The notes beneath the pieces were generated by a model. It saw nothing but the letters and a program-made list of their open reading frames with translations, had not been told where the DNA came from and searched no databases. From Bacteroidales bacterium (lineage in GTDB: Bacteria; Bacteroidota; Bacteroidia; Bacteroidales; UBA932), in assembly GCA_022508605.1 (NCBI GenBank), contig JAFLUX010000001.1, positions 1 to 64,000 of the forward strand: a DNA stretch of 64,000 bases, read 5' to 3'. This document shows, one piece after another, positions 16,691 through 59,329 of the stretch (its first letter is position 1; every line of letters starts with the position of its first letter). A program made the translations under genes and the position numbers.

Positions 16691-19057
16691 TCAGGCCTTC
16701 CTTTCAGGCCTCATCTTGGCATATTTGAGCAACAGGAGCTTTTCTCCGTATTCATCGAAGCGCACCCTTGCCTTGAGTTCCGGCACGACGCCGCTTATTT
16801 CCAATATCAGACCCGGGCCGAACCTGTTGTGCTCTATGCGCTGGCCCGAATGGAAATCGGTCATCGGAGAAGGGACGAAATCAGGGTCTGCGGGAGGCAG
16901 GACACGCTGCGGCCCCGCGGCAGGAGCGGGCGATGCGGCGCGGACCGGTCTTGCGGAATCGGTGTGCCGGCCCTCCCCTCCGAAACGCCCGGTGAACCGT
17001 CCGGAGCCGAAGGCCCCCTGTTGGCTGGTCCTTTGTGTCGTCCCGATATCATCCTGTTCCAGCGGCCTGTCGAGATACCTGGCATCTATTTCCTTTATAA
17101 AGCGCGAAGGGGCGTTGGATTCATGGCGGCCATGGCGCATGCGGGTGCCGGCAAAAGAGAGCGCCACGGCCCGCTTGGCCCTTGTCACAGCCACATAGAA
17201 CAAACGCCTTTCTTCCTCTATGTCTTTCAGGCTCAGAATCATGGACTGGCTCGGAAACAGGTTTTCCTCCATTCCCGCCACGAACACATACGGAAATTCA
17301 AGGCCCTTTGCAGAGTGCACCGTCATGAGAGCCACTTTGTTGCCCGCATCTTCCTCGTCGGCGACATCCACGTTGCTCAGGAGCGACACGTTCTCCAGAA
17401 AATCGTCGAGCGTATATACGGCCCCCTCAGCATCCTCGGCACCCTCGGCCTCCTCCCTGCGGTCTTCGACGAACGAGGCCACGGAGTTCACGAGTTCCTC
17501 GACATTGGCAAGACGGGCCTGCCCCTCGACAGAATTGTCGCCCTTGTAGAACGCATGCAGGCCGCTGTCGTCCGCTATCCTTTTTGCAAGCTCGAAGGCA
17601 TCGGTCACAGCGACCGCCTGCGAAAGCCTGTCTATCATCCCGCAGAAAGCCCTCAGCTTCTGTATCGCCGCGCTGCGAAGTCCATAGGTCTCCAGGCCGT
17701 CGGAGAAAGCAGCCCTGAACAGAGTGGTGCCGGCGGCCCGTGCCGCGGCCTCAAGGGCTCTTAGCGTGGTATCTCCTATCGCCCTTGCAGGCTTGTTCAC
17801 CACACGTTTGAAAGATTCGTCATCGTGCGGATTCACCACGAGCTTGAAGTAGGCCATCATGTCCTTCACCTCCGCCCGTTCGAAGAAAGAGTTGCCGGAA
17901 TACACCATGTACGGGATATTGCGGCGCCGGAGCTGTTCTTCAAGGGCCCTGGACTGCGAATTGGTGCGGTACAGTATGGCGAAGTCCTCGTAGCGAGCGC
18001 TGTCGCGTCGTATGCGGGACTGGATGCCGGACACTATCTCCATAGCCTCGTCCTGCTCGGTCGAAGCGCTTATGAGCCTGATTTTTTCGCCCTCCTCACC
18101 TTCCGCATAGCACTTCTTGGGTATCCTGCCGGTATTGTGTTCTATCACGGAATTGGCCGCGTCCACTATCGTGCGGGTGCTGCGGTAATTGCGCTCCAGC
18201 CGGAAAACCTTGCATTCGGGATAGTCCTTGCGGAAATTCAGTATGTTCTGTATCTGCGCCCCTCTGAAGGCATATATGGACTGCGAATCGTCGCCCACCA
18301 CGCAGATATTGCGGCGCAGGCCGGACAGCTTGCGTATAATCAGGTACTGGGAATAGTTGGTGTCCTGGTATTCATCCACGAGGATGTGTGAAAAGCGCGA
18401 AGATATGTCTTCGAGAGCCTGTTTGTCGTCCCGCAGGAGTATGTTCATATTGAGCAGGATATCGTCGAAGTCCATCACCCCGGACTGCTTCATGCGCTTC
18501 TGATACAGGTCATAGACCTCCACGAGCCGAGGTTTTTTCGCATGGGCGTCGGCTATCTGCGCATTGCGGTCGTTCCTGTAGGCCGAGACCGTCACAAGAT
18601 TGTTCTTTGCGCTCGAAATGCGCGACAGCACGTCCCGCGGCTTGTACACCGAGTCGTCGAGCTGCAGTTCGCGTATCGCGGCCTTCACGGCGGAAACCGA
18701 ATCGCCCTGGTCGTATATCGTAAAGTTTGCCGGATATCCTATGCTCGAGGCGTAATCCCTCAGGAAACGTATGAACACCGAGTGGAATGTCCCCATCACG
18801 AGGCGCCGCGCCTTGTATTCTCCCACCATGAGGGCTATGCGCTCTTTCATCTCCCCCGCCGCCTTCTTGGTGAAGGTCAGGGCGAGAATGCCGGAGGGCT
18901 CCGCACCGGAGGCAAGCAGGTTCGCTATACGGCTCGTAAGAACCCGAGTCTTGCCGGATCCTGCTCCGGCCACTATCAGCACGGGACCATCCAGACACTC
19001 GACCGCTTTCCTTTGTTCATCATTCAATCCCCCGAAAATAGCACTCACATTCTCCAT
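16691..19057 (-). CDS. UvrD/PcrA-type ATP-dependent DNA helicase
   Basis: LNDEQRKAVECLDGPVLIVAGAGSGKTRVLTSRI; LVDEYQDTN; ERNYRSTRTI; MTVHSAKGLEFPYVFVAG; VAVTRAKR. Confidence 0.93.
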   Translation of the reverse strand: MENVSAIFGGLNDEQRKAVECLDGPVLIVAGAGSGKTRVLTSRIANLLASGAEPSGILALTFTKKAAGEMKERIALMVGEYKARRLVMGTFHSVFIRFLRDYASSIGYPANFTIYDQGDSVSAVKAAIRELQLDDSVYKPRDVLSRISSAKNNLVTVSAYRNDRNAQIADAHAKKPRLVEVYDLYQKRMKQSGVMDFDDILLNMNILLRDDKQALEDISSRFSHILVDEYQDTNYSQYLIIRKLSGLRRNICVVGDDSQSIYAFRGAQIQNILNFRKDYPECKVFRLERNYRSTRTIVDAANSVIEHNTGRIPKKCYAEGEEGEKIRLISASTEQDEAMEIVSGIQSRIRRDSARYEDFAILYRTNSQSRALEEQLRRRNIPYMVYSGNSFFERAEVKDMMAYFKLVVNPHDDESFKRVVNKPARAIGDTTLRALEAAARAAGTTLFRAAFSDGLETYGLRSAAIQKLRAFCGMIDRLSQAVAVTDAFELAKRIADDSGLHAFYKGDNSVEGQARLANVEELVNSVASFVEDRREEAEGAEDAEGAVYTLDDFLENVSLLSNVDVADEEDAGNKVALMTVHSAKGLEFPYVFVAGMEENLFPSQSMILSLKDIEEERRLFYVAVTRAKRAVALSFAGTRMRHGRHESNAPSRFIKEIDARYLDRPLEQDDIGTTQRTSQQGAFGSGRFTGRFGGEGRHTDSARPVRAASPAPAAGPQRVLPPADPDFVPSPMTDFHSGQRIEHNRFGPGLILEISGVVPELKARVRFDEYGEKLLLLKYAKMRPERKA

Positions 19058-19129
19058 AATGGCCAAAAATACAAAAAAAAGTGGTATCTTCGCATCGCCT
19101 TTTTGCAAATACTCATAATTGTATATAAA

Positions 19130-20482
19130 ATGTCAAAAAACATCGTTTTGAAAAGGGGTCTGGACATACCGGTAAGCGGATGTGCGGAACTTCGTGTCGA
19201 CAAACCGATGAGCCCCGACCTGGTAGCGGTACGCCCCGGCGACGTCAGGGGACTGCTTCCCAGGCTGCTGGTGAAGGAAGGTGACCGCGTGCTCTGCGGC
19301 TCCCCGGTCATTGCCGACAAGAAAAACCCCGACATTCTCCTGACGGCCCCGGTGAGCGGCACGGTCAAGGAGATTGTGAGAGGTGAGAAACGGAAACTTC
19401 TCGCGGTGCTCATCGAAGCCGACGGCAAATGCGAACATGTCGACTTCGGCACCATGAATCCCGCAGGAATGTCTGCCGGCGAAATCAAGACAGCCATGCT
19501 GAGAAGCGGCCTGTGGCCGGTGCTCATACAGCGCCCCTACGGAATCGTCGCCGACCCGGAAGCAAGCCCCAAGGGCATCTTCGTCTCGGCTTTCCACAGC
19601 GCCCCGCTCGCGGCAGACCTTGAATTTACGCTCGGAGGAGAGGTCGAAGCCATACAGAAAGGCGTCGACGCCCTTGCCAGAATCGCCCCGGTGCATGTCA
19701 GCATAGACGGGGCCTTGCAGTCTTCGGCATTCGAGAAACTCAAAGGATGTCAGATACACAGGTTCTCAGGCAAGCATCCTGCCGGAAACGTGGGAGTGCA
19801 AATCAGCCATATCAGCCCCATATTCAAGGGCGACACCGTATGGACGGTCAGCCTGAACGGTCTTGCCGCCATAGGCCGCCTCTTCAGCTGCGGACGCTAC
19901 GACGTAAGCCGCAAGGTGGCGGTCACCGGTCCGGCAGCCTCGAATCCTTCATACGTGGAGGCCCTGCCCGGCACTCCGGTCAGGTGTTTTTCCGCCCATT
20001 TCCGTGCTGACGACGGGCAGCTGCGCATCGTCAGCGGAGACCTGCTGAGCGGCACCTGCGTCGGACAGGACGGATATCTCGGATGGCACGACGACCAGAT
20101 TTCGGTCATACGCGAGGGCACCGAAAAAGAACTTCTCGGATGGATGCGTCCTTTCAGAATCAAGCAGTTCAGCAACGACCGCAGCTACTTCAGCTGGCTC
20201 ATGCCCGGACGCAGGTACGACATGGACACCAACCTGCACGGAGGTCCCAGGCCGTTCCTGATGAACGACAACTACTACGCGAAGGTCCTCCCCATGGACA
20301 TCTACCCCGTGTACCTCGCCAAGGCCTGCCTTGCAGGAGACATAGAGAAGATGGAGCAGTTCGGCATCTACGAAGTGCTTCCCGAGGATCTTGCCCTCTG
20401 CGAATTTACCGACCCGAGCAAAAACTACATTCAGGACATAATCGCAAAAGGCATAGACCTTATGCTTAAAGAAATGGCTTAA
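19130..20482 (+). CDS. nqrA: Na+-translocating NADH:quinone reductase subunit A
   Basis: MSKNIVLKRGLDIPVSGCAEL...; first gene of a six-gene Nqr cluster. Start at ATG 19130, not the ORF-track 18542. Confidence 0.92.
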   Translation: MSKNIVLKRGLDIPVSGCAELRVDKPMSPDLVAVRPGDVRGLLPRLLVKEGDRVLCGSPVIADKKNPDILLTAPVSGTVKEIVRGEKRKLLAVLIEADGKCEHVDFGTMNPAGMSAGEIKTAMLRSGLWPVLIQRPYGIVADPEASPKGIFVSAFHSAPLAADLEFTLGGEVEAIQKGVDALARIAPVHVSIDGALQSSAFEKLKGCQIHRFSGKHPAGNVGVQISHISPIFKGDTVWTVSLNGLAAIGRLFSCGRYDVSRKVAVTGPAASNPSYVEALPGTPVRCFSAHFRADDGQLRIVSGDLLSGTCVGQDGYLGWHDDQISVIREGTEKELLGWMRPFRIKQFSNDRSYFSWLMPGRRYDMDTNLHGGPRPFLMNDNYYAKVLPMDIYPVYLAKACLAGDIEKMEQFGIYEVLPEDLALCEFTDPSKNYIQDIIAKGIDLMLKEMA

Positions 20483-20487
20483 AAGAT

Positions 20488-21606
20488 ATGAACAAGATTT
20501 TTGAAAAAGGCGGAAAACTTTACTGGCTCCACAGCACCGTCGATGCTTTTGAGACATTCCTTCACGTTCCCGGAACCGTCACTCTCAAGGGCTCGCACGT
20601 GCGCGACGCCATAGATTTGAAACGTCTCCTCATCCTCGTGGTGATAGCCGCGGTCCCGGCGGCCGTATTCGGCATGTGGAATGTCGGCTACCAGCACGGT
20701 CTCGCGATGGGACAGAGCGGACTGCATATTCTGGAGTACTTCTGGTTCGGCTTCCTGAAAGTCCTCCCCCTCTTCCTCGTATCCTACATAGTGGGACTCG
20801 GGATAGAATTCGCCTCCAGCCAGATACGCGGCGAGGAAGTGAGCGAGGGTTATCTCGTCAGCGGCTTTTTCATTCCGCTGATAGTACCCGTGGACATCCC
20901 CCTGTGGATGCTCGCCGTCGCCGTGGCATTCGCCGTGATTTTCGGCAAGGAAGTATTCGGCGGCACGGGAATGAACATCTGGAACCCGGCGCTCCTGACA
21001 CGTGCATTCCTGTTCTTCTCATACCCTAACTACATGTCCGGCTCGGAATGCTGGATAGCCTTCAAGAAGGGCGAAAGCGCGGTGGCTGACGCCTTTACCG
21101 GAGCTACTCCCCTGGCTCTCGACGGAGCCCCCGCCCAATACGGGACAGGCTTCTGGGACCTCTTCATAGGAACGGTGCCCGGCTCGGTCGGCGAGACTTC
21201 CGTCATCGCCATACTGCTCGGCGCCTTCATCCTGATATGGACAGGCATAGCCAGCTGGAAAATCATGTGCGGCAGCGTCCTGGGCGCCCTGCTCGTCGGC
21301 TGGATAGGCGAAATCGCCGGAATCAGCGACATTCCCTGCTACATGCACCTGCTCTACGGCGGATTCGCATTCGGCACGGTCTTCATGGCGACGGACCCCG
21401 TCACCTCATGCCAAACGGAGACAGGCAAATGGATTTACGGCGTGCTCATAGGCATGCTCTGCATCACCGTGCGCCTGTTCAACCCCGGATATGCCGAAGG
21501 CATGATGCTCGCCATCCTGCTGCTCAACACCTTCGCGCCGGTCATAGACCATTGCGTTACGAGCATGCACATTTCCCGCAGACTCAAAAAATTCAAAACC
21601 GCATAG
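20488..21606 (+). CDS. nqrB: Na+-translocating NADH:quinone reductase subunit B
   Basis: FFIPLIVPVDIPLWMLAVAVAFAVIFGKEVFGGTGMNIWNPAL; GATPLA; MATDPVTS. Confidence 0.94.
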   Translation: MNKIFEKGGKLYWLHSTVDAFETFLHVPGTVTLKGSHVRDAIDLKRLLILVVIAAVPAAVFGMWNVGYQHGLAMGQSGLHILEYFWFGFLKVLPLFLVSYIVGLGIEFASSQIRGEEVSEGYLVSGFFIPLIVPVDIPLWMLAVAVAFAVIFGKEVFGGTGMNIWNPALLTRAFLFFSYPNYMSGSECWIAFKKGESAVADAFTGATPLALDGAPAQYGTGFWDLFIGTVPGSVGETSVIAILLGAFILIWTGIASWKIMCGSVLGALLVGWIGEIAGISDIPCYMHLLYGGFAFGTVFMATDPVTSCQTETGKWIYGVLIGMLCITVRLFNPGYAEGMMLAILLLNTFAPVIDHCVTSMHISRRLKKFKTA

Positions 21607-46217: not shown

Positions 46218-48293
46218 ATGAAATACAGAATAACAAATATGATTTGCGTGCTGCTCGCCTTAGGCGCCTGCAGCAAGATTAGCGAGCCGGCCCCCGTGGA
46301 AGACACCCTCAGGGTCGTGCTCTCCCCTGCCCTCGGAACCATACAGGCCAATGGCCGCACAGCGGACGACAAGTCCGAGTACGAGGCCGTGGTAAAGGTC
46401 TACAGGGGCAGCGCCCTTGCGGACGACCTCAGCTGGACAGCAGAACTGGTGGACGACCCCTCCTGGATAGATGATTTCCAGAGCTCTGTGAGGATGGAAA
46501 GCCTGTTCACGGACATGTATTCCGGCAAGGACTACACCATCGCCGAGAGCGGCATCATCATGGCTTTCAAGCCCAATTCCGGCAGCAGCCGCACGGCGAC
46601 GCTCCGCTTCAAGCTATCCGACGGCAGCACCGTCGACTTCAGGATAAGGCAGAAGGGAGAGATACCCGATGACGTGCACATCGCCAGCACCGACGACCTG
46701 CTCGCGTGGGTGGCCGACCAGTCCGAATGGTCAGATGCCGACTGCATCTATCTCGATGCCGACATAGACATGGATGGCGTGGACTGGAAGCCCATCAATT
46801 TCAGCGGCAAGTTCGACGGACAGGGCCACTGCATCTACAACTTCGTGCAGAATGCCAACGAGGAAAGTTTCGGCTTCTTCGGCATCATGTCCGGAAGCGT
46901 CAGCAACCTCATCTTCGGCTCTTCCGACGGAAAAAACTATGACGGCGAGAGCGTCATAAACTTCTCCGGCACGGGCGGAAAATATCATGTGGGCATGATT
47001 TCCCAGTGCCAGGGCGATGTGACCGACGTGACCAACTTCATGAGCATCAAGATTTCCACCGACAGCGGGGCCAATCTCTACGCCGCACCGCTCATCGGCA
47101 CCGTCAACGTGGCTGGCATCACCATAAAGAACTGCGTCAACTACGGAGACCTCACTGCTCCCACGGCAGACAATACTTCCGGCAAGGAATCTCTTTACGG
47201 AGGCATACTCGCCCGCTGCGAACCCGGCTCCGGGGCCGCCATAGACGTGACAGGCTGCAAGAACTACGGCAACATCATCAGCCAGGATCCCTTCACAACG
47301 GCCATAGCCGGCATAGTGGCAAACACTCCCAGCGGCCACTTCGTGCGCATCACGGACTGCGAGAACTTCGGCAACGTCGCCATCAACTCTTCCGCAGCGC
47401 CCGACGGCTTCAAGGAAGGTTATGCCGGAGGCATAGGAGGCCTGCTCCGCGGCAATACCGACGGTGTGGTGGTACGCAACTGCGTCAACCATGCTGACCT
47501 GAGCGCCAGCGGGAGCACCCTCGGCGACTTCGGAGGCATACTCGGTCGCGGACGCCCCGCACTGATTGTCGACTGCGTCAATGAAGGTTCCATTACTTTC
47601 GACGGCAGCGGTACCGCACAGGGCCTGCTCATCGGTGGCATCAGCGGCGGCATGTACGACGGCGGCACCATCGAAGGCTGCACCAACAAGGGAGCGATAC
47701 TCTCCAACAAGAGCACCGTACACCGCATGGGCGGCATCACCGGCACCATGAGTTCCGGTGTCTGCACCGTGAAGAACTGCACCAACGAAGCCCCCATATC
47801 CATCATACGAAGCACGCCCAACTCCAACTGGCAGGGCATAGGAGGCATCTGCGGCTATCAGGAGAACTCCGATGCAGCCACTATCGAGGGCTGCACCAAC
47901 AAGGGAGCCATAACCATCATCTGCCCGAGCAACACCACTCATGTCAACGGCATCGGGGCAGGCGGCATCATGGGGACCTGCAAGCTCAACATGAACTTCA
48001 GCGGCAATGTCAATGAGGGCGATGTCACCGCCACTATAGACGGCGAAGTGGAGAAGTTCGCCGGCGGCCTGGTAGGTTACAATTACGCTGCAAGCTGCAA
48101 ATGCACTGGTGACAAGGTGCGTGCGGCGGTCAGTTGCACCACAGCCGGCATACTCGTCGGAAGCAATGCAGGCAGCTTCAGCGGATGCTCCGCAGCCGGC
48201 AGCGTTAACGGCACGAGCGTCGGCAGCGACAATCTCGTCAGCCTTGCGGCCGGCGTCAACAAAGGCACAATCAGCGGCACTGTGATATGGTAA
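46218..48293 (+). CDS. Lipoprotein: BACON/Ig-like N-domain + GLUG-type repeats
   Basis: Lipobox LGACSK; TADLLAWVADQ...FDGQGHCIYNF; repeated GGIxG/NCxNxG units. Confidence 0.78.
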   Translation: MKYRITNMICVLLALGACSKISEPAPVEDTLRVVLSPALGTIQANGRTADDKSEYEAVVKVYRGSALADDLSWTAELVDDPSWIDDFQSSVRMESLFTDMYSGKDYTIAESGIIMAFKPNSGSSRTATLRFKLSDGSTVDFRIRQKGEIPDDVHIASTDDLLAWVADQSEWSDADCIYLDADIDMDGVDWKPINFSGKFDGQGHCIYNFVQNANEESFGFFGIMSGSVSNLIFGSSDGKNYDGESVINFSGTGGKYHVGMISQCQGDVTDVTNFMSIKISTDSGANLYAAPLIGTVNVAGITIKNCVNYGDLTAPTADNTSGKESLYGGILARCEPGSGAAIDVTGCKNYGNIISQDPFTTAIAGIVANTPSGHFVRITDCENFGNVAINSSAAPDGFKEGYAGGIGGLLRGNTDGVVVRNCVNHADLSASGSTLGDFGGILGRGRPALIVDCVNEGSITFDGSGTAQGLLIGGISGGMYDGGTIEGCTNKGAILSNKSTVHRMGGITGTMSSGVCTVKNCTNEAPISIIRSTPNSNWQGIGGICGYQENSDAATIEGCTNKGAITIICPSNTTHVNGIGAGGIMGTCKLNMNFSGNVNEGDVTATIDGEVEKFAGGLVGYNYAASCKCTGDKVRAAVSCTTAGILVGSNAGSFSGCSAAGSVNGTSVGSDNLVSLAAGVNKGTISGTVIW

Positions 48294-49201
48294 TGAAAAA
48301 AGCACTGAAATTACTTTGGACTCTTCCCCTCGCGGCACTTCTTTTCGCTTGCGAGGGGGCCGAGCCCGAACTGCCCGTATTCACGCCGCCGGAAGACGGT
48401 GGCGGCGATCAAGAGAAGCCTGAATTGTCTTTGGAGCCTGCCGAATGCAACAACAGGGTTGTCGCGCACCGCTGCGGCGCCAAGGAAGCCGGCCTGCCGG
48501 ACAATTCCCTCGCCGCCCTCGAATATGCGATGAGGCTCGGCTGCTACGCCGCCGAAATAGACATCTATTACACATCCGACAACAATGTGATAGTACACCA
48601 CGGCAGTTCCGGCAAGGTGAACGGACTCTTCCCCTCCCAGCACACCCTCGAACAGATAAGGGCCGCGGGCAAACTCTCCAACGGAGAGGAAATCCCCACG
48701 CTCGAAGACTTCCTCGACGCGGTGTGCGTCAAGGGCAACTGCACCCGTCTCTGGATAGAGACAAAGAACATCACCAATGAAGAGCTGCTGCCGTCCGCTC
48801 AGGAAGCTGCAATAATCAACGGCGTAAAGAGGTCCCTTGAAATCATAGCCGAAAAAAAGGCCGAGAAATTCGTGGAGTTCAACGGCACCGGGCGCTCGGC
48901 CGTATTCAAGCAGATATATCCCCTGATCAAGGCCAAGGGCTACAGCTGCTCCATGGCCACGGCCAACTCCGCCGCCACCATGAAATCCAACGGCTATGAG
49001 TGGAGCAACTACGACGTCACGTCCAAGTCGGCCTCCGACATCGCCGGCATCGTCGCCGACTATCAACAGTATTCGGTGTCGCTGAGTCTTTACAACATAG
49101 ACACGGATGAGCTTCGCAGCGCCTGCTCTCCCCATAAGGAGAAAGTGAAGGGACTGATGACAAACTATCCCAGGGCCCTGATGGGCGCGATTAATTGGTA
49201 A
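48293..49201 (+). CDS. GDPD-type (glycerophosphodiester phosphodiesterase) lipoprotein 1
   Basis: VVAHRCGAKEAGLPDNSLAALEYAM...AAEIDIYYTSDNNVIVHH...IPTLEDFLD...WIETK; TAATG overlap with upstream stop. Confidence 0.85.
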   Translation: MKKALKLLWTLPLAALLFACEGAEPELPVFTPPEDGGGDQEKPELSLEPAECNNRVVAHRCGAKEAGLPDNSLAALEYAMRLGCYAAEIDIYYTSDNNVIVHHGSSGKVNGLFPSQHTLEQIRAAGKLSNGEEIPTLEDFLDAVCVKGNCTRLWIETKNITNEELLPSAQEAAIINGVKRSLEIIAEKKAEKFVEFNGTGRSAVFKQIYPLIKAKGYSCSMATANSAATMKSNGYEWSNYDVTSKSASDIAGIVADYQQYSVSLSLYNIDTDELRSACSPHKEKVKGLMTNYPRALMGAINW

Positions 49202-49231: not shown

Positions 49232-49393
49232 ATGTCATTAATTATTAACGATTTGACTAATAGGGGCAGGTATGAAACTCCCATTTGCCGAGTATATTCC
49301 ATGACCCCGGCCGCAGTCATCTGCGGCAGCCTTGAACAGCTTCTTCCGGAAGGATTCTCCGGTTTCGAGGATGTCGATGATTGGGATGATTAA
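49232..49393 (+). CDS. Micro-peptide 1 (53 aa)
   Basis: Hand translation MSLIINDLTNRGRYETPICRVYSMTPAAVICGSLEQLLPEGFSGFEDVDDWDD*; 30 nt after GDPD1, 16 nt before next CDS; related to peptides 2 and 3. Confidence 0.7.
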   Translation: MSLIINDLTNRGRYETPICRVYSMTPAAVICGSLEQLLPEGFSGFEDVDDWDD

Positions 49394-49409
49394 ACAAAGG
49401 AGATGAGCG

Positions 49410-51923
49410 ATGAAAAGAATTGTTTGCATCATAGCGGCAATGGCCGTTTTGACCCTTGTCTCCTGCAATAAGGAGCAGGTCGAGTCCCCTGCTGTGGGGG
49501 AAAAGACGGACGAGAACAACGGCGCCGCCGGTGTTTTCTCTTTCTCCGCCGCCAGGGAGCTTACCACCAGAACCTATCTGGACGAAGAATCGAATGCTTT
49601 CCTGTGGGAAAACGGAGAATCCCTTGCAGTCTGCTATGGCAGCACCATAAAGGAGTTCGTGTATGATGCCGCTTCGGAAGCATTTATCTGCGAGGATTTC
49701 GATGAGAGTGCATCCGGACCTTTCTATATAGTCTCCCCCTACAGCGCCGAGTTGAGTATAGACAGTGGAAGAATCCGCACCGTGCTTCCCTCCATCCAGA
49801 CGGCAGGAACCAAGGGCTGCGACCCCTCCGCACTTATATCAGTGGCTAAGGCAGACGACGTCGAGACACTCAAGGAAGGAGTGACGCTCAAGAACGCGTT
49901 CAGCCTGATCAAAGTTACCGTCAAAGATTCCGATGTGTCGTCCGTCTCTTTCGAGGGCAATGCCGACGGCATGAACCTGGCTCCAGTAATCTCCGGACCT
50001 GTGAGCATAGACCCTGACGATGCCTCCGTCACCGTCAGCGGGCGCAAGACTGCAGTCACCCTGACTGCCGCCTCCGGCAATCTGGAAGCAGGCACTTATT
50101 ACATCGCTGCCGCACCTGCAACTCTTGAAAAAGGCATCAAGGCAATATTCAAGCGCGACGGCGAGGAACTTGCCAGCTTCCGCAAGACCTCATCGTCCCG
50201 CACGCTCGTGCGCAACGCAGGCCTGAACCTCGGCAGTTTCGACGTGGCCTCGTTGGAAGGCCGCTGCCGCTATATCCAGAATGCCGAAGACATAAACAAA
50301 TGGAGAACCGGCACTGTCAGCGGCTCGGACATCACTTTCCTCGGTGATGATATCGACATGGGCGGAGCCGCACACACACCCTTCGATATCGATGGTAGTT
50401 TCGACGGACAGAACCACTGCATCGCCTGCTTCAAGTCCGAAAGGTCCGGCGCCAATGCCGCTTTCTTCAACAATACTAAAGGTGATGTAAGCAACATTAT
50501 CTTCGGCTCGCTCGACGGCGAGACCTATGATGGCGTCAGTATCATCACAGTCGACGGCTCATCCGAGAACTGGGTATATGCAGGTGCAATTGCGAGACTC
50601 AACAGCAATGCCACAGGCATCCGCACCTATGTTCCAGTCAGCATACTTTCCTCATGTACGTGCAAAGTTCGTGTAGGAGGACTCTTCGGTGGAGGTTTCG
50701 GCAGTGGGTCCAAGGTCGAGTCGTGTTACAATTACGCGAAAGTCAGTTCTGATGCTTCTGGAAAAACAGACGAATATGAGTCTTTGTTCGGAGGCATCCT
50801 CGGATGCTGCAATCCCGGCGAGTCAGAGACAATCTATTTTGTAGACTGCCACAATTATGGCGAGGTCATATCCACGGATCCTTTCTGCACCGCAGTAGGA
50901 GGAATAGTCTCAAATTGTCCAAGCAAGAATCTGGCAGTAATTACAGACTGCCACAACTATGCAAATGTAGCAATCAACACAGTAAATGCGCCAACGGGCA
51001 ACAAAGAAGGATATGTCGGTGGCATCGGAGGGCTTCTGAACGGAGGAGGAGTCAAAGGCATATTGATTAAGAACTGCGTAAATCACTCAAATATCGAAGT
51101 TACGGGCCCTACTACAGGAAATATAGGAGGCATTGTCGGACGAGCCAATTGCGGAGATATCGACGGCTGTGTCAATGAGGGAAACATTGCCTTCAACGCA
51201 AATGTCGGAAGCAGGGCCCTGCTCATCGGAGGCATCGCCGGCGGCATGTACACTGCCCCATCATCAAGTGTCACAAACTGCACCAACAACGGCAATATTT
51301 CTTCAAACAAGAACCAGGTCAACCGCATAGGAGGCATAGTCGGTACAGTAAACTCCGGGGCCAACACCATTTCCGGCTGCATCAACAACGGCACGGTCAC
51401 GCTATCCCGCTCTGCCGCGAACAGCAACTGGCAGGCGGCGGGCGGTATAGTCGGCTTCCAGCAGGCATCCACATCATGCGTTATCAAGAAATGTGAAAAT
51501 CGGAATGCAGTAACGATTTCCATGCCTAATAATTTAAGCGGCGGCAATGCGATAAATGCCGGAGGAATTGTAGGTCTCGCCGTACATAACATAGATTTGT
51601 CTGAGAATATCAATACAGGTGACGTTACCATAGACAATACCGGAAGTGCCGATTCTTATGCCGGAGGGATTGTGGGGCAGTTCAAAGACTCCGAGGCCGG
51701 CACCAAGTCGGCAAGCGGAGACAGCAGCAATTGCGCCGTATCGGTCACCGCCGCAAATGCATATGCAGGAGCATTAGCCGGTAGCAACGCTGCAAAAGGC
51801 ACGTTCACCGGAGAGAAAGTGGCCGGCTCCGTGAACGGAGTGACGCTCAGTACAGACAATTTTGAAGGACTGCTGTGGGGAGCCAATACCGGCACGGTCA
51901 CAGGAACCGTATTATCCAAATAA
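49410..51923 (+). CDS. Lipoprotein: fimbrillin-like N-domain + GLUG-type repeats
   Basis: Lipobox LVSCNK; TRTYLDEESNAFLWENGESLAVCYG; repeated GGIxG/NCxNxGxI units. Confidence 0.8.
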   Translation: MKRIVCIIAAMAVLTLVSCNKEQVESPAVGEKTDENNGAAGVFSFSAARELTTRTYLDEESNAFLWENGESLAVCYGSTIKEFVYDAASEAFICEDFDESASGPFYIVSPYSAELSIDSGRIRTVLPSIQTAGTKGCDPSALISVAKADDVETLKEGVTLKNAFSLIKVTVKDSDVSSVSFEGNADGMNLAPVISGPVSIDPDDASVTVSGRKTAVTLTAASGNLEAGTYYIAAAPATLEKGIKAIFKRDGEELASFRKTSSSRTLVRNAGLNLGSFDVASLEGRCRYIQNAEDINKWRTGTVSGSDITFLGDDIDMGGAAHTPFDIDGSFDGQNHCIACFKSERSGANAAFFNNTKGDVSNIIFGSLDGETYDGVSIITVDGSSENWVYAGAIARLNSNATGIRTYVPVSILSSCTCKVRVGGLFGGGFGSGSKVESCYNYAKVSSDASGKTDEYESLFGGILGCCNPGESETIYFVDCHNYGEVISTDPFCTAVGGIVSNCPSKNLAVITDCHNYANVAINTVNAPTGNKEGYVGGIGGLLNGGGVKGILIKNCVNHSNIEVTGPTTGNIGGIVGRANCGDIDGCVNEGNIAFNANVGSRALLIGGIAGGMYTAPSSSVTNCTNNGNISSNKNQVNRIGGIVGTVNSGANTISGCINNGTVTLSRSAANSNWQAAGGIVGFQQASTSCVIKKCENRNAVTISMPNNLSGGNAINAGGIVGLAVHNIDLSENINTGDVTIDNTGSADSYAGGIVGQFKDSEAGTKSASGDSSNCAVSVTAANAYAGALAGSNAAKGTFTGEKVAGSVNGVTLSTDNFEGLLWGANTGTVTGTVLSK

Positions 51924-51942
51924 CTATTATAGACAACGCATT

Positions 51943-52083
51943 ATGAGCAAAAAGAACTTGTTCGACTTCTATCAGGCACCGGACTGCGAGCTTTGTCCGT
52001 TGTGCGGCACAGAGCTTATTTGTGTTTCCGGAGAAGGGAGCACCGAAGATTTCACTGGGGACTTTCCCGAGTATAACTGGTAG
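51943..52083 (+). CDS. Micro-peptide 2 (46 aa, Cys-rich)
   Basis: MSKKNLFDFYQAPDCELCPLCGTELICVSGEGSTEDFTGDFPEYNW*; 19 nt after and 4 nt before neighbours. Confidence 0.7.
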   Translation: MSKKNLFDFYQAPDCELCPLCGTELICVSGEGSTEDFTGDFPEYNW

Positions 52084-52087
52084 ACTT

Positions 52088-54181
52088 ATGAAAAAATTAT
52101 TCATATTAGCAGCAGCGATTGCGGCAGCCGCATCCTGCGCGAAAGAGCCGGTCGTTACAGAATCCACGGCCCTTGTAAACAAGACATTCGAGGCATCGTT
52201 CAATGCCCTCGACACCAAAACTTCCCTTTCTTATGAGTCCGGGGTGTACAAAGTTCTGTGGAACGCCGGGGACGAAATCGCCGTCTACGATGACGTCGAT
52301 CCGCGCACGCCCCACGTTTTCACCGCATCCGGCAGCGGGGCCAGCACCACATTCAGCGGACAAATAAGCGCCGGAGCCTCGAAGTTCTACGCCGTGTACC
52401 CCGCCGATGCTGCCATCGACTGCAATTTCACGGACGGAGTCATCAGCGCCAGCGTTCCCCAGACCCAGTATCCCGAAGCCGGGAACGTGGACGGGAATGC
52501 CCTTGTCACCGTTTCTTACAGCGAGAGCAGCACTTTCGTCTTCCGCCATGTATGCTCCATGCTCAAGTTCACCCTGAGCGGAGCCGAAGATGTGTCTGAA
52601 GTTCAGATAAAGACCAACGGAGACCAGCTCATCGCAGGCGCATCATCAGTCACCTATTCCGAGACCCCTTCAGAGGTGGCGGGCTCCGCGAGTTTCGTGA
52701 GCATCAAGCCGAATGGGGGCAAGACTTTCGCCAGCGGCACCTATTACGCGGCAATACTGCCCACTGAATTTTCCGGCGGTATCACGGTAACGCTCTTCAA
52801 GTCGGAGGGCGGAGCGGCATCCAAGAGCGCCAACAGCGCGCTTTCGGCACCCCGCTGTGCCGGAGCCGACCTCGGCACCCTCGCAGGATGGACCTTCGGC
52901 CGTGCCATACACATCACTTCCGCCGAAGAGCTCCAGACCCTCTGGACGTCCGGCGGATGCGAGAGCCTCGGCAACAACGACATCGTGTATCTGGACACGA
53001 ATGTGGAACTCACCAAAGGCATACGCAGCTGCGAAGACACGTTCAACGGCATTTTCGACGGACAGGGACATACCATCAGCGTCACCTATCGCGGAGGCGC
53101 CAAGTATCCTGCTCCGTTCAAGATTGTGACAGGCACGATACGAAACCTCAACGTGGAGGGTGAATTTACCTGCCTTAACCGCACTACCAAGGACGAAGTC
53201 AGGGTCGGAGGCATCGCAGGAAGCCTCAACGGAGGCATCATCGAAAACTGCCACGTGAATGCATCGCTCGGAATAGAAGACGTCGACAATCTCGCCATGG
53301 GCGGACAGGTATCGCAGATAGGCGGCATCGTCGCATTCATACAGGCAAACGGAGGCACCGTCCAGGACTGCTCATTCAGCGGCACCATAACCTGTGAGAC
53401 TGAAAAGGCCTCAGACGGGCGTCAGATTATAATGGGCGGCATCCTCGGAGGCTCCGGAAACAGCACCGCAGGCATGACGATCATACGCAACTGCCACAGC
53501 GAAGGAACCATAATCCAGAGGCAGTATTTCGACACCTGGGGATATGTGGGAGGCATAGCAGGACGCACCGGCGCCGCTACCTACCTGATGTCCGGAGGCG
53601 AGGGCTTCTACAATGTGTTCGACGGATGCTCCTCATCCATGCACATAAGGCTTGAAGGACAGAAGACAAGAGGCGGCGGCATCTCCGCCACCCCCAACGG
53701 AGCATTCCTTATCAGCAACTGCGACTTCAGCGGAAAAATCACCCTCGGCGCCACCAACACCGGAGAGCAGTGCGGAGGAGGCATCGTGGGCTTCTGCGAG
53801 ACCACGAGGAACGGCATCATCGAGAACTGCACATTCAGCGGTACCATAGATGACTCCGACGGAAACAATTCCTACAACTCATGGCTCGGAGGTATATGCA
53901 CGAACGGTTTTGAAGCCAATTCCGTGATACGCAACTGCCGCTCCACAGCCGGCTGCCTTGTCGTCCACACCAGAGAAAAAGGAAGCTGCGGACTCATCGC
54001 AGGACGTCCCAACAACGCTATCACCATACGCGACTGCAAGGTCGCCGGCACGGTGCTTTCTGCAAAGAACGGAGCCGTGACCATAGACAGTCAGGCCGCC
54101 CTCGAGGCCAATCCGTGGGTAGTGACAGGAGAGGCCACGACTGCCGCAGTAGTATCAATCAACAACGTTTACGGTGAATAA
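52088..54181 (+). CDS. Lipoprotein: fimbrillin-like N-domain + GLUG-like repeats
   Basis: Lipobox AASCAK; TKTSLSYESGVYKVLWNAGDEIAVYDD; GGIAGSLNGGIIENC-type repeats. Confidence 0.8.
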   Translation: MKKLFILAAAIAAAASCAKEPVVTESTALVNKTFEASFNALDTKTSLSYESGVYKVLWNAGDEIAVYDDVDPRTPHVFTASGSGASTTFSGQISAGASKFYAVYPADAAIDCNFTDGVISASVPQTQYPEAGNVDGNALVTVSYSESSTFVFRHVCSMLKFTLSGAEDVSEVQIKTNGDQLIAGASSVTYSETPSEVAGSASFVSIKPNGGKTFASGTYYAAILPTEFSGGITVTLFKSEGGAASKSANSALSAPRCAGADLGTLAGWTFGRAIHITSAEELQTLWTSGGCESLGNNDIVYLDTNVELTKGIRSCEDTFNGIFDGQGHTISVTYRGGAKYPAPFKIVTGTIRNLNVEGEFTCLNRTTKDEVRVGGIAGSLNGGIIENCHVNASLGIEDVDNLAMGGQVSQIGGIVAFIQANGGTVQDCSFSGTITCETEKASDGRQIIMGGILGGSGNSTAGMTIIRNCHSEGTIIQRQYFDTWGYVGGIAGRTGAATYLMSGGEGFYNVFDGCSSSMHIRLEGQKTRGGGISATPNGAFLISNCDFSGKITLGATNTGEQCGGGIVGFCETTRNGIIENCTFSGTIDDSDGNNSYNSWLGGICTNGFEANSVIRNCRSTAGCLVVHTREKGSCGLIAGRPNNAITIRDCKVAGTVLSAKNGAVTIDSQAALEANPWVVTGEATTAAVVSINNVYGE

Positions 54182-55829
54182 ACGCCTCATTCTTCTCTTT
54201 CCGGCGGCAGTCATGCTTCTTTCGGCAGTCTGCTGCCGGAAAGATATTTCACGGGACTATTGTCCGGAGCTTGTCGAAACGGAGCTGAGCGCCGTATGGG
54301 GAGCTGAGGCGGACACTCGCCTCAGCCTGTCCCCCAACGGCAGCGGATTCAAGACGGAATGGACGTCCGGCGACAAGATAGGGGTATTCGACAATATCGA
54401 CCCCGGAACCATACGCACATTCTACTGCATAGGCGGCGGGAAACAGGCGAAGTTCATAGGCACGGCATCGGCCGGCGCCACCGAATTTTATGCGGTTTAC
54501 CCTTTCGACGCCAATGCTTTCATAGACTGGGCCGGCGGCAAGATAATAAGTTCGCTCCCGTCCTCGCAAGTCGCCGTTAAAGGCTCCATACCCAAGGAGG
54601 GCTTTGTAGCCGTGGCACATTGCGACAATGACCTGCTCGAATTCAGGAATGCATTCGGACTCGTGAGCTTCACCCTCGACGGAAGCGGAGCCGTGGACAT
54701 GGTTACGCTGGAGGGCAACAACGCAGAACGGATTTCAGGGGTAGCGACGCTCAAGGCCGACGGGAGCAATACGTGCAGCGGCACCTCCGTATCTCTGACC
54801 GCCCCCGGCGGCAAGACCTTTGAAGCCGGCACCTATTACATGGCCCTGTCTCCGGTGAACTTCACCAAGGGTTTCACCGTCACCGTACACAGCAAGGTGT
54901 ACTCATCTTCCGTAAAGACCACAGCCAAGAGCGCGAGCATTCCCCGGAGCGGGGGCCTTGCCCTCGGCAACATCACGGCAGGTGCGGTTTGGGAGCGCCC
55001 TTCCGCCCCCGAGAAAGCGGACAACAACATTTGTGCGCACCGCGCAGGCTACCATGAGGTCAGCGGCGTACCTGCCAATTCCATAGCCGCCATCGAGTAT
55101 TGCGTCCGGCAAGGCTTCGCAGGAGCGGAAGTGGACATACTCCTGACCGCCGACGAGAGGATTATCGTATGCCACCCCGACAGCGACGGAAAGGTGAACG
55201 GGCTGCTGCCGAGAAACAGCACCCTCGCCCAGATAAGGGCGGCCGGCACGCTGTCCAACGGGGAGCCCGTACCGGTGCTCGAAGATGCGATAGATGCCGT
55301 GATGGTAAGCGGAAGCTGTACGAAACTACAGCTCGACATAAAGGCCGTGGACGGCACATGGGACTTGCGTGCAGGCAAACTCGCCGCCGACATGGCCGTC
55401 AGCAAGGGCGCCACGGCTTTCGTAGACCTGATGAGCACGAGTCTCTACGGGGTATATGAGAATCTCTGGCCCTATGTGGAGAAGCTCGGAATCCCCCTCG
55501 CCCTCAACAACGGCACGAAAAGCCGCGTATCCGGATGCAGCAAATGGCTGAGCGCATGCGCACCTACCCAGATGTTTTCCGGAGCCGGAGGGAAGGGCAG
55601 CATCAACCCCGACAATTTCACGGCGGATTACAAGATCAGCGTTTTCACGATAGACAGGGACTGGTACAACGCAAATTCCCTGTATTACGAAAACACTGTC
55701 TCGCATGCTTCCGACAATTCGGTCTACTCCCCTGCGGGAGTGCAGTACTATGTACAGAACTGGTCGAAATTCCACCTCCTCATGTCGAACGAGCCTTCCT
55801 GGTTGCGAAAAATGATTTTCAACAAGTAG
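54174..55829 (+). CDS. Fimbrillin-like domain fused to GDPD-type domain (GTG start)
   Basis: Lipobox-like VCCRKD; TRLSLSPNGSGFKTEWTSGDKIGVFDN; then NNICAHRAGYHEVSGVPANSIAAIEYCV...AEVDILLTADERIIVCH...LQLDIK. Confidence 0.8.
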   Translation: MNKRLILLFPAAVMLLSAVCCRKDISRDYCPELVETELSAVWGAEADTRLSLSPNGSGFKTEWTSGDKIGVFDNIDPGTIRTFYCIGGGKQAKFIGTASAGATEFYAVYPFDANAFIDWAGGKIISSLPSSQVAVKGSIPKEGFVAVAHCDNDLLEFRNAFGLVSFTLDGSGAVDMVTLEGNNAERISGVATLKADGSNTCSGTSVSLTAPGGKTFEAGTYYMALSPVNFTKGFTVTVHSKVYSSSVKTTAKSASIPRSGGLALGNITAGAVWERPSAPEKADNNICAHRAGYHEVSGVPANSIAAIEYCVRQGFAGAEVDILLTADERIIVCHPDSDGKVNGLLPRNSTLAQIRAAGTLSNGEPVPVLEDAIDAVMVSGSCTKLQLDIKAVDGTWDLRAGKLAADMAVSKGATAFVDLMSTSLYGVYENLWPYVEKLGIPLALNNGTKSRVSGCSKWLSACAPTQMFSGAGGKGSINPDNFTADYKISVFTIDRDWYNANSLYYENTVSHASDNSVYSPAGVQYYVQNWSKFHLLMSNEPSWLRKMIFNK

Positions 55830-55830
55830 A

Positions 55831-55953
55831 ATGAAAGAAAAACTCAGTTACTGCAGGCCCGATGCCTGTCCGTCCGTACTGTTCCCGGAAGACCTGCTCT
55901 GCGTGAGCGGCACCCTGGAGGACATAGGAGACATGGACAATTTCGAATGGTAG
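55831..55953 (+). CDS. Micro-peptide 3 (40 aa)
   Basis: Hand translation MKEKLSYCRPDACPSVLFPEDLLCVSGTLEDIGDMDNFEW*; 1 nt after the upstream stop, 37 nt before SusC copy 2. Confidence 0.7.
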   Translation: MKEKLSYCRPDACPSVLFPEDLLCVSGTLEDIGDMDNFEW

Positions 55954-55990: not shown

Positions 55991-58900
55991 ATGAAAAAAC
56001 TTATTCTGGCGGCACTGCTCGCGGCCATCGCCCTGCCGCTTGCCGCACAAAACATCCAGTCGACCGCGTCCTCCCCGGCACAGGGAGTCTTCAAGGGACG
56101 TGTAGTCGATGCAGACGGCGCTCCCATGCCAGGTGCCTATATACGAATCGTCGGGCGTGAAGGCGGTCTCGTATGCGATATAGACGGGGGATTCGAGCTG
56201 ACCGGCGTGGACTTCCCCGCTACTCTCGTGGTCTCCTTCATGGGCTACAAGGACACGACCGTGCCCGTCAGCGGCAAGGAAGCCGCTCCATTCGTCATAA
56301 CTCTCACGGATTCGGAGAATTTCCTCGACGATGTAGTGGTGGTGGGCTATGGTACCCAGGCCCGCAAGACCCTGACCACGTCCATATCCAAAATCGACGG
56401 GGACTCCCTTGCGGACGCCCCGGTATCGAGCGTGGGAGATGCAGTGAAGGGAAAGGTCACAGGACTCAGAATCGCGACGAGCAACGCCCTTTCCGGCGAG
56501 GCTCCCCGTTTTCTTATAAGAGGCGGTTCGTCCGTATCCATGAGCAATGACCCGATATACCTTGTCGACGGTGCCGTGCGGGACGACCTCAACGGCATCA
56601 ACCCCAACGACATAGAGTCGATGGAGGTATTGAAGGACGCCGCGTCCGCCGCCATCTACGGAGCGCGGGCATCCAACGGAGTCATACTCATCACCACGCG
56701 CAAAGGCTCCAAGACCACCGGGCCGCAGGTGGTATTCGATGTCCAGATGGGCATACAGACCCCGGCATCCAAGTGGGACATACTGAATGCCCGGGAATAT
56801 CTCGAATTTATACGCCCCGCCATCGCCACCTCACTCGCCCTCGACACCCAGCATCCGGCGAGCACGCTCCTGAACGGCCCTAATGCATACGGCACGGGCA
56901 ACACCTCGCCCACGTCCATATTCTCCACACGCTACCTCGACTACAAGGCGGAGGTGCCGGAGGGCTATCAGTGGATGTACGACCCGATAGACCCCACCAA
57001 AGTGCTGATTTTCACGGATACGGACTGGCAGAGCCAATGGTTCTCCCCCGCTTTCTGGCAGAAGGAGTATATAGGGGTGAACGGCGGCACGGATCAGATG
57101 AAATATGCCGCATCCATAAGCTATCTGCAGGATGACGGCGTAGTTGCGATGAGCAATTACAATGTGTTCACCATGCACGGGAACACCAGTTTCAAGGTGA
57201 CTCCCAAGCTGGAGGCAGGAGCCACTTTCGACATATCCCGCCAGACTAAGCACATCCCCAACGACAACTATTACCAGCCGATAGGACGCGGCCTGATAGC
57301 TCCGCGCACGGCCATGGAGAAGAACGCATACGGCGAATGGAACCAGCTCGTTCTCACGAATGTCAACGCACACAGCCCGGCCTGGTACGAGACATTCTAC
57401 GACCGCATGAACACGACCAACCGCGTGTCCGGCACATTCAATCTGCACTGGAACATCATCGAAGGACTCTCCGCCCATGCCCAGTACAATTTCTATGAAC
57501 AGAATTATGTCGGAAGCTACTACGCCTACGGCGAGAGGGAGGGGACCAGCAACTCGGTGAGCACGACGCGCTCCACGACTGAGACCCGCACGTCCATGAC
57601 CCGCGACACATTCACGGCCCACATGGATTACAACCGGGCCTTCGGGAACCACCATGTGAATGCCACGGCAGGTTACGAATACATGAGGCAGCATTATCTC
57701 TACCTCACTTCCAACGCCACGGGAGCCACGTCGGACGATGTCCCCGTGCTTCAGTCAGGCGTGAATTTCACCACTTCCAACAACGACCAGAGCCAGGTGA
57801 TGATTTCGTACTTCGGGCGAGCCGGATACGATTTCAAACAGCGCTATATCTTCTCCGCCACATTGAGGGCGGACGCCTCGTCCAAATTCGCAAAGGGCAA
57901 CCAGTGGGGATTCTTCCCGTCCGCATCGGCCGCCTGGATTCTGTCCGAGGAACCGTTCTGGGACAGGCTGCGCAGCAGCGTAAACACTATGAAACTGCGT
58001 GCATCGTTCGGCCAGACAGGCAACAACGGTATAGGGCTTTACGACACCTACGGAGCATTCGTTACCGGCGTATATGCCGGCATGTCCACCTTCGATCCGA
58101 GCGCCATGCAAAATTCCGGCATGCAGTGGGAGACGACCACGCAGCTCGACCTCGGAATCGACATCGGCATAGCCAGAGACCGTGTACGCATCATTCTCGA
58201 CTACTACAACAAGGTGACGGACAACATGCTGTACTCCATCACCCTGCCCGACACCAGCCCCTACTCCTCAGTGAAGGCCAACGTGGGAAGCGCACGCTTC
58301 TACGGCTTCGAGTTCGAGGTGCACAGCGCCAACATCTCCAAGAGGAACTTCAGCTGGTCCACCGATTTCACCTATTCTTTCAACGCGAACAGAGTGCTCT
58401 CGCTGCCTGACGAATATGCCTACGACGAGGTCGACGAATGGGGCAATCCCACAGGCCGCACCGCCTGGCGCATAGGAGGATACACCATGTCCGAATCCGG
58501 CTACCGCTTCGGCGGCACGGCCGTGGGCGAACCTCTGGGCCGCATCTACGGCTACAAGATAGACCATATCATTCAGACGCTCGCCGATGCTGACGCCGCC
58601 CTCTGGGACAACGAGTCCTACGGCTACCGCGTAAGCGACGGACTGCGCATCAAGGGCCGCAAGGATGCCGGAGACTACGAGTGGCAGAACAGAATAGGCT
58701 CGGCACGCGACGAAAACGGCAACGAAATCATCAATTCCGAGGACATGTTCTACCTCGGCAATGTAATGCCCCACTCCACCGGAGGAATAGGCAACAACTT
58801 CAGTTTCGGGCGGCTGAGCCTGAACATCTACTTCGACTATGCCCTGGGGCACTCCATAATCAACGGCCAGAAGACGCAGATGCTCAAGAACACCATGGGC

Positions 58901-59329
58901 GACTGCAACTCCATACTCGGACGCATGGTTTACGACTGCTGGAAATATCCGGGAGACACCGGGGCCAAATATGCACGCTACACTCCCAACGACTCCGACT
59001 GGGGCAACCGCAACTGGCGGGGCAATTCCGACTTCATGGTAGAGAGGGCCGACTATCTGTGCCTGCGCGACGTAACGCTCAGTTACAACCTGCCGGAAAA
59101 GTGGGTGAGCCCGCTCAGCATAAAGCAGCTCACGGTGGGCATATCCGGCAACACTCTGTATTATTTCACGGGTGTCACGGGAGCCATCAGCCCGGAAACG
59201 GGCATGAGTTCGTCGAGCGGAGCTTCCATGTACACCGCAGTATCCACGAACAACAGTTCATCGGACACCCGCGGAAACCTGATGCCCAACACCAGAAAAG
59301 TGTTATTCAGCATTAAAGCAATCTTTTAA
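55991..59329 (+). CDS. SusC/RagA-family TonB-linked outer-membrane protein (copy 2)
   Basis: FKGRVVDADGAPMPGAYIRIVG; FLDDVVVVGYGTQARKTLTTSISK...IESMEVLKDAASAAIYGARASNGVILITTRKG. Confidence 0.96.
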   Translation: MKKLILAALLAAIALPLAAQNIQSTASSPAQGVFKGRVVDADGAPMPGAYIRIVGREGGLVCDIDGGFELTGVDFPATLVVSFMGYKDTTVPVSGKEAAPFVITLTDSENFLDDVVVVGYGTQARKTLTTSISKIDGDSLADAPVSSVGDAVKGKVTGLRIATSNALSGEAPRFLIRGGSSVSMSNDPIYLVDGAVRDDLNGINPNDIESMEVLKDAASAAIYGARASNGVILITTRKGSKTTGPQVVFDVQMGIQTPASKWDILNAREYLEFIRPAIATSLALDTQHPASTLLNGPNAYGTGNTSPTSIFSTRYLDYKAEVPEGYQWMYDPIDPTKVLIFTDTDWQSQWFSPAFWQKEYIGVNGGTDQMKYAASISYLQDDGVVAMSNYNVFTMHGNTSFKVTPKLEAGATFDISRQTKHIPNDNYYQPIGRGLIAPRTAMEKNAYGEWNQLVLTNVNAHSPAWYETFYDRMNTTNRVSGTFNLHWNIIEGLSAHAQYNFYEQNYVGSYYAYGEREGTSNSVSTTRSTTETRTSMTRDTFTAHMDYNRAFGNHHVNATAGYEYMRQHYLYLTSNATGATSDDVPVLQSGVNFTTSNNDQSQVMISYFGRAGYDFKQRYIFSATLRADASSKFAKGNQWGFFPSASAAWILSEEPFWDRLRSSVNTMKLRASFGQTGNNGIGLYDTYGAFVTGVYAGMSTFDPSAMQNSGMQWETTTQLDLGIDIGIARDRVRIILDYYNKVTDNMLYSITLPDTSPYSSVKANVGSARFYGFEFEVHSANISKRNFSWSTDFTYSFNANRVLSLPDEYAYDEVDEWGNPTGRTAWRIGGYTMSESGYRFGGTAVGEPLGRIYGYKIDHIIQTLADADAALWDNESYGYRVSDGLRIKGRKDAGDYEWQNRIGSARDENGNEIINSEDMFYLGNVMPHSTGGIGNNFSFGRLSLNIYFDYALGHSIINGQKTQMLKNTMGDCNSILGRMVYDCWKYPGDTGAKYARYTPNDSDWGNRNWRGNSDFMVERADYLCLRDVTLSYNLPEKWVSPLSIKQLTVGISGNTLYYFTGVTGAISPETGMSSSSGASMYTAVSTNNSSSDTRGNLMPNTRKVLFSIKAIF

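Follow-up and report, generated by a model that had tools for sequence, protein, structure and literature searches.

Micro-peptides encoded beside surface lipoprotein genes in Bacteroidales are candidate precursors of LPP-like phosphorylated RiPPs

Three micro-ORFs in a surface-protein locus

The 64,000-nucleotide stretch of Bacteroidales DNA analyzed here (the window; contig JAFLUX010000001.1 of assembly GCA_022508605.1) includes, at 38975-62894, a large operon-like block that encodes two SusC/SusD pairs together with lipoproteins of the GLUG/BACON (several) and GDPD (two) kinds; as a surface locus it is unusual, combining glycan with phosphodiester genes. The three micro-ORFs that a first-pass annotation had described are all present on the + strand, with short flanking gaps. 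Peptide 1 (53 aa; 49232..49393, +; gaps of 30 and 16 nt) is divided into a putative leader, MSLIINDLTNRGRYETPICRVYSMTPAAVI, and a predicted core, CGSLEQLLPEGFSGFEDVDDWDD. Peptide 2 (51943..52083, +; gaps of 19 and 4 nt) has 46 aa when counted from its ATG, its frame running further in the ORF list, to a TTG at 51862; here the leader would be MSKKNLFDFYQAPDCELCPLCGTELI and the core CVSGEGSTEDFTGDFPEYNW. For peptide 3 (40 aa; 55831..55953, +; gaps of 1 and 37 nt) the corresponding parts are MKEKLSYCRPDACPSVLFPEDLL and CVSGTLEDIGDMDNFEW. The predicted cleavage boundaries, given as the codons from Cys+1 to Ser3, lie at 49322..49330 (CGS), 52021..52029 (CVS) and 55900..55908 (CVS), all on the + strand. 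We infer the leader/core division, for peptide 1 from the Y(-17)/S3 spacing, and the +1 position from comparison with the LPP and Bsf precursors discussed below. The common core and the acidic, aromatic tails agree with the sequences quoted in the first-pass annotation. Its Cys-rich stretch in peptide 2 (CELCPLC) is likewise real, but does not hold as a family feature, the only Cys at a fixed position being that at +1, which can be replaced by Ala.

Peptide 1 is followed after 16 nt by a gene for a lipoprotein (49410..51923, +; lipobox ...LVSCNKE) with a fimbrillin-like N-terminal part and GLUG motifs (Glug E 0.021, under the Pfam cut-off), and peptide 2 after 4 nt by one for a fimbrillin-like (Mfa_like_1) and GLUG lipoprotein (52088..54181, +; Mfa_like_1 E 9.5e-5, under the cut-off; Glug E 2.1e-12). 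These downstream partner genes belong with the fimbrillin-like (Mfa_like_1) and GLUG lipoproteins of Bacteroidales; no small upstream peptide is reported in the papers on Mfa_like_1/GLUG systems found in the open-access literature. Peptide 3 is among the few family members without a lipoprotein behind them and precedes, by 37 nt, a gene whose ORF sequence is that of a SusC-like TonB-dependent transporter (55991..59329, +). A further lipoprotein gene in the window (54174-55829), with a fimbrillin-like N-terminal part and a GDPD domain, has no peptide upstream; its product is partly homologous to the stand-alone GDPD lipoprotein encoded at 48287-49201.

When ORFs of at most 80 aa were searched for the pattern Y..P.{13}[CA].S, the window yielded four, namely the three peptides and a spurious ORF at 56787, compared with a mean of 0.27 and a maximum of 2 in 60 dinucleotide-preserving shuffles of the same DNA.

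A multi-copy peptide family upstream of lipoprotein genes

The three micro-peptides are real and are members of a multi-copy family. With the 40-aa peptide alone as the query, a fourth copy was found in the same genome, before a fimbrillin-like/GLUG lipoprotein gene, and a profile of the four peptides detects 11 family loci at E < 1e-3 in this 1.94 Mb genome (peptide 1, 6.7e-22; peptide 2, 2.6e-24; peptide 3, 2.7e-19, these three being seeds of the profile). Within the genus, 163 of the 200 genomes have matches at E <= 1, a loose cut-off at which each genome should give about one match by chance; many of the matches are far below E 1, and single genomes hold as many as 21. At E <= 1e-3 the family is present in 62/250 genomes and 7/26 genera of the taxonomic family and is sparse in the order, and outside the order a class-wide profile search gave nothing above chance level. 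A tight peptide alignment led to 15 named loci, all in uncultured Bacteroidales/Bacteroidia metagenome assemblies, many of them from rumen. No Pfam or NCBIfam family matches the peptides in scans of both collections, and in the open-access literature searched on fimbrillins and small ORFs, and on HprK and RRE proteins in Bacteroidota, nothing bearing on the family turned up apart from the papers on LPPs and phosphorylated lasso peptides.

Aligned without a motif filter, 38 profile matches share an ungapped Y-x2-P-x13-C-x-S in which Y, P, C and S are invariant. In a larger set of 118 members, retrieved with a pattern that itself imposes Y, P, C/A and S, Cys+1 is replaced by Ala in 10, and any further Cys in the core is found in just 2; some remote members also carry Ala. 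A metal-binding role, one of the proposals of the first-pass annotation, was rejected because no Cys past +1 is fixed and Cys+1 itself can be Ala. A ribosome-arrest leader was rejected as well, the distance from motif to stop varying from 14 to 40 residues.

The amino-acid sequence of the peptides is under purifying selection. Across 16 non-overlapping pairs of equal length, selected for a protein identity of >= 55%, a choice that biases the estimate downward, dN/dS is 0.20 overall, 0.28 in the leader and 0.12 in the tail (core), with 45% of synonymous vs. 13% of non-synonymous sites differing; the ratio near 1 by which the first-pass annotation would have recognized an unconserved frame was thus not found. 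The tail SGDGQNEGYDEYPINW is common to three copies in the genome of the window, with synonymous differences only.

Two other loci of the genome, G000:C31 (L148:2587-2769) and G000:C29 (L149, into the peptide at 6468), are identical over 182/183 nt, in a block that starts about 110 nt before the peptide ATG and stops exactly at the Cys+1 codon, past which tails and downstream genes are unrelated. In C31 an imperfect inverted repeat of 30 nt (92 nt apart) lies right at the 5' edge of the block, and in C29 the copy adjoins an ORF that by eye is tyrosine-recombinase-like. A phase-variable promoter or a cassette exchange is possible at these two loci. It could be argued from the shared block ending exactly at the Cys codon, and from the recombinase-like ORF beside one copy, that the motif serves to mark a site of DNA recombination in cassette switching, the peptide being a by-product, but across genomes the motif is kept as protein and not as DNA, and we consider this explanation barely credible.

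A lipoprotein start lies behind 88 of the 112 members with readable downstream DNA according to an automatic lipobox rule, and at least six more cases classed as 'other' are lipoproteins by eye, giving a total of about 94/112. The distance from the peptide stop to the lipoprotein start is typically 11-25 nt, with a peak at 12-13, and most partner lipoproteins carry a fimbrillin-like N-terminal part ('T-K-T/A ... W..GD'). About ten peptide-lipoprotein pairs occur within 20 kb on both strands at one locus (L144), and three pairs in tandem at another. Exceptions are peptide 3, with its SusC gene, and one member before a BadF-like kinase gene; in g282, an order-level genus, the peptides mostly stand alone, the majority without a close downstream gene. 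From position, the adjacent lipoprotein would be the partner of each peptide; as for the correlation between tails and partners, it would arise equally if neighbouring genes were inherited together.

The g282 genomes (G825, G1004 and G924) carry up to 10 relatives each, many of them stand-alone, with long tails ending in RSNLWGDDED-like sequences, and constitute a second sub-family. At L142:1648-2757 (G957) one ORF of 369 aa joins the peptide head, in frame, to a sequence that carries a lipoprotein signal.

Close spacing of this kind could also reflect a translational-coupling or cis-regulatory leader ORF, whose translation sets the rate of the next gene while the peptide itself is minor. The strong peak of the stop-to-start distance at about 12 nt is in keeping with such a role, as is the fact that Bacteroidetes use Shine-Dalgarno sites little. 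Against it stand the dN/dS of 0.12 in the tail, the fixed Y/P/S spacing, the stand-alone members and the link to an RRE operon that lies on a different contig. Pure translational coupling, as proposed in the first-pass annotation, is not supported, given the purifying selection on amino acids and the several stand-alone relatives, and we regard a coupling role as very unlikely.

An RRE, kinase, peptidase and exporter operon associated with the peptides

The first-pass annotation had noted no modification enzyme near the peptides. This is correct within the window; however, another contig of the same genome carries an operon for a kinase, an SpI-like peptidase, an RRE and an ABC exporter (G000:C2, ~18268-21507, minus strand), which in relatives lies beside peptide genes. 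Of 13 genus genomes, 12 have a PqqD-like RRE, and its neighbourhood is constant in those examined, comprising kinase, SpI/S24-type peptidase and RRE, with the ABC exporter mostly directly behind. The RRE matches PqqD (PF05402, E 4e-15), and the only significant match of its profile in the PDB is the lasso RRE TfuB1 (6jx3, E 2.6e-4). The peptidase resembles archaeal SpI (TIGR02228, E 7e-4, below its cut-off), with S35, H73 and D88 kept at 95% or more in 22 sequences. The kinase, in which the P-loop SGTGKST and NDDNP are invariant, is weakly like HprK-related kinases, the HprK families being matched below their curated cut-offs (HprK_rel_A, E 0.007). The exporter is MsbA-like (TIGR02203, E 4e-72, below the equivalog cut-off; PF00664 and PF00005 above cut-off). 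According to gene maps, there is no NTP transferase in the neighbourhood of the operon in the genome of the window; one (NTP_transf_5, PF14907) is present in G739 (E 4e-33) and G336 (E 1e-39). In G336 (L219) the RRE, NTP transferase and kinase are situated inside a capsule/exopolysaccharide-like locus, which echoes the capsule-linked LPP clusters of Bacilli, with a diverged Y..P..A-A-S peptide-like ORF 3.6 kb off.

As the YxxP leader is shared with lasso precursors, the RRE is most like lasso B1, and many members, including peptides 2 and 3, have an acidic residue at core position 7-9, the peptides might be true lasso peptides with a core closed by an isopeptide bond. Nevertheless, the lasso protease B2 (PF13471) is absent from all 13 genus genomes, that of the window included, and no cyclase was noticed around the operon in gene maps (no profile search). 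Peptide 1 has no acidic residue at 7-9, and in place of the Thr(-2) and Gly1 of lasso precursors the family has V/L/I at -2 and Cys/Ala at +1. A lasso identity was rejected for lack of B2 and appears highly improbable.

In order to see whether peptides and operon occur together, the kinase profile was searched in 80 chosen genomes, peptide-positive vs. peptide-negative. At the order level the kinase was found in 7/8 peptide-positive vs. 3/31 peptide-negative genomes (p 6e-5), or 7/31 of the latter when weak matches are counted (p 0.0014), and by genus in 12/12 peptide-positive vs. 6/31 other genera (p 1e-6). All these p-values assume independence of the genomes and genera, an assumption that holds only approximately given their shared ancestry. 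In the genus of the window the contrast is weaker, with the kinase in 4/4 peptide-positive genomes vs. 14/20 strict peptide-negatives. Some genomes of the analysis have peptides but no detectable kinase (G539, 99% complete; G521; G1004; G514). The two are also physically linked: in G502 (L210) two peptide-lipoprotein pairs lie directly upstream of kinase-SpI-RRE-ABC, in G499 (L228) one pair lies directly downstream of the operon, and G739 (L211) has the order peptide-kinase-SpI-RRE-NTP transferase-ABC, a complete LPP-type cluster, in each case on the same strand. In the genome of the window no peptide gene found adjoins the operon.

Another explanation of the pairing is that each peptide is an unmodified, lipoprotein-specific adaptor or chaperone, which stays in the cytoplasm and aids the folding or export of its neighbour, the Y..P..C.S head docking onto a common factor. 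The near one-to-one pairing with lipoproteins at tight distance would suit such a function, as would the behaviour of the tails, which are kept alike inside certain groups of loci but differ between others. It leaves unexplained, however, the invariant Ser at the position that kinases target in related RiPPs, the RRE-type YxxP motif, and the co-occurrence and linkage with the operon, and some members precede a SusC or kinase gene or stand alone. We consider an unmodified adaptor unlikely; a lipoprotein-specific adaptor role may instead be the job of the mature peptide.

Proposed maturation and comparison with known phosphorylated RiPPs

Among the four roles offered in the first-pass annotation, the evidence favours precursor peptides, and we think it probable that the peptides of the window are LPP-like (linear, phosphorylated) RiPP precursors that a single shared machine matures in trans. 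The leader would be the N-terminal half, from Y-x2-P to the residue before Cys/Ala, and would be bound by the stand-alone PqqD-like RRE. The putative HprK-like kinase would phosphorylate the invariant core Ser3, the SpI, an archaeal-type signal-peptidase-like enzyme, would cut before Cys/Ala+1, and the MsbA-like ABC exporter would carry the short acidic, aromatic core from the cytoplasm. For the window peptides the predicted product is the acidic tail of 17-23 residues. A single operon (kinase, SpI, RRE, ABC) would serve the numerous scattered precursor genes, of which this genome has 11. Since most precursor genes lie directly upstream of a fimbrillin-like lipoprotein gene, each exported core probably acts with, or attaches to, the neighbouring surface protein. 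More tentatively, each fimbrillin-like lipoprotein, together with some SusC proteins, might have its own kinase-modified, exported micropeptide with an N-terminal Cys, serving as subunit, cap or surface anchor; if true, LPP-type RiPPs would act as structural parts of the cell surface and not as antibiotics.

This reading would place the core LPP machinery, with many dispersed precursors, in rumen and gut Bacteroidales; this dispersed arrangement with many precursors, seen here in Bacteroidota, appears to be new. It provides a candidate identity and modification route for a large class of unannotated small ORFs that neither Pfam nor NCBIfam models, and it supplies an orphan RRE operon with candidate substrates, and the tie between precursor and lipoprotein would be a first testable clue to the role of such phosphopeptides.

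Two kinds of phosphorylated RiPPs are pertinent for comparison. BsfA, a phosphorylated lasso precursor, has Tyr(-17), Pro(-14), Leu(-12) and Ile(-2) in its leader and phospho-Ser3 in its core, and its phosphorylation persisted despite Tyr/Pro substitutions (PMC10368454), so that YxxP alone is no proof of RRE dependence. Taking Cys/Ala as +1, the window family has Tyr(-17), Pro(-14), V/L/I(-2), I/L(-1) and Ser3. Tyr(-17), Pro(-14), the hydrophobic residue at -2 and Ser3 agree in position with BsfA, and the family also resembles LppA with its YxxP leader and A1-Q2-S3 core. The sole residue after the leader that is never replaced, Ser3, thus corresponds to the residue that such kinases modify; the Y-x-x-P resembles the leader motif bound by RREs, and a small residue at +1 is as expected for the cut site. 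The family thus has in common with the phosphorylated lasso peptides (Bsf type, PMC10368454; paeninodin type) Y(-17), P(-14), Ile/Val(-2), a Ser3 that is kinase-phosphorylated in the lasso systems and a stand-alone PqqD-like B1. It differs from them in that B2 was not found, a cyclase was not noticed in the gene maps, and Gly is not the first core residue.

The LPPs of Bacillota are made by SpI, a discrete RRE, an HprK-like kinase, an NTP transferase and an MsbA-like transporter; in their precursors a YxxP leader precedes a core that starts A-Q-S, with Ser3 phosphorylated, and the C terminus is variable, while cleavage by SpI in vitro required the RRE (Popov et al. 2026, PMC13381572). In 2026 they were described as confined to Bacillota and of unknown role (PMC13381572). 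We do not claim LPP membership for the window family, because the operon of its genome has no NTP transferase, its precursors are dispersed rather than inside the cluster, and HQ and FET of the LPP leader consensus YxxPxVLxHQxIxFETxxS are missing, only Y, P, the hydrophobic positions and S being kept. Nonetheless, the likeness extends to the short precursors, with YxxP leader, small residue-x-Ser3 core and variable C terminus, and, as judged from sequence, to a discrete RRE, a candidate HprK-like kinase, an SpI-type peptidase with Ser/His/Asp and an MsbA-like exporter. In contrast to the LPPs of Bacillota, the system described here belongs to Bacteroidota, its operon usually lacks the NTP transferase, its precursors have an unusual Cys at +1 and Tyr at -17 rather than -16, and each genome holds many of them, scattered and paired with surface lipoproteins.
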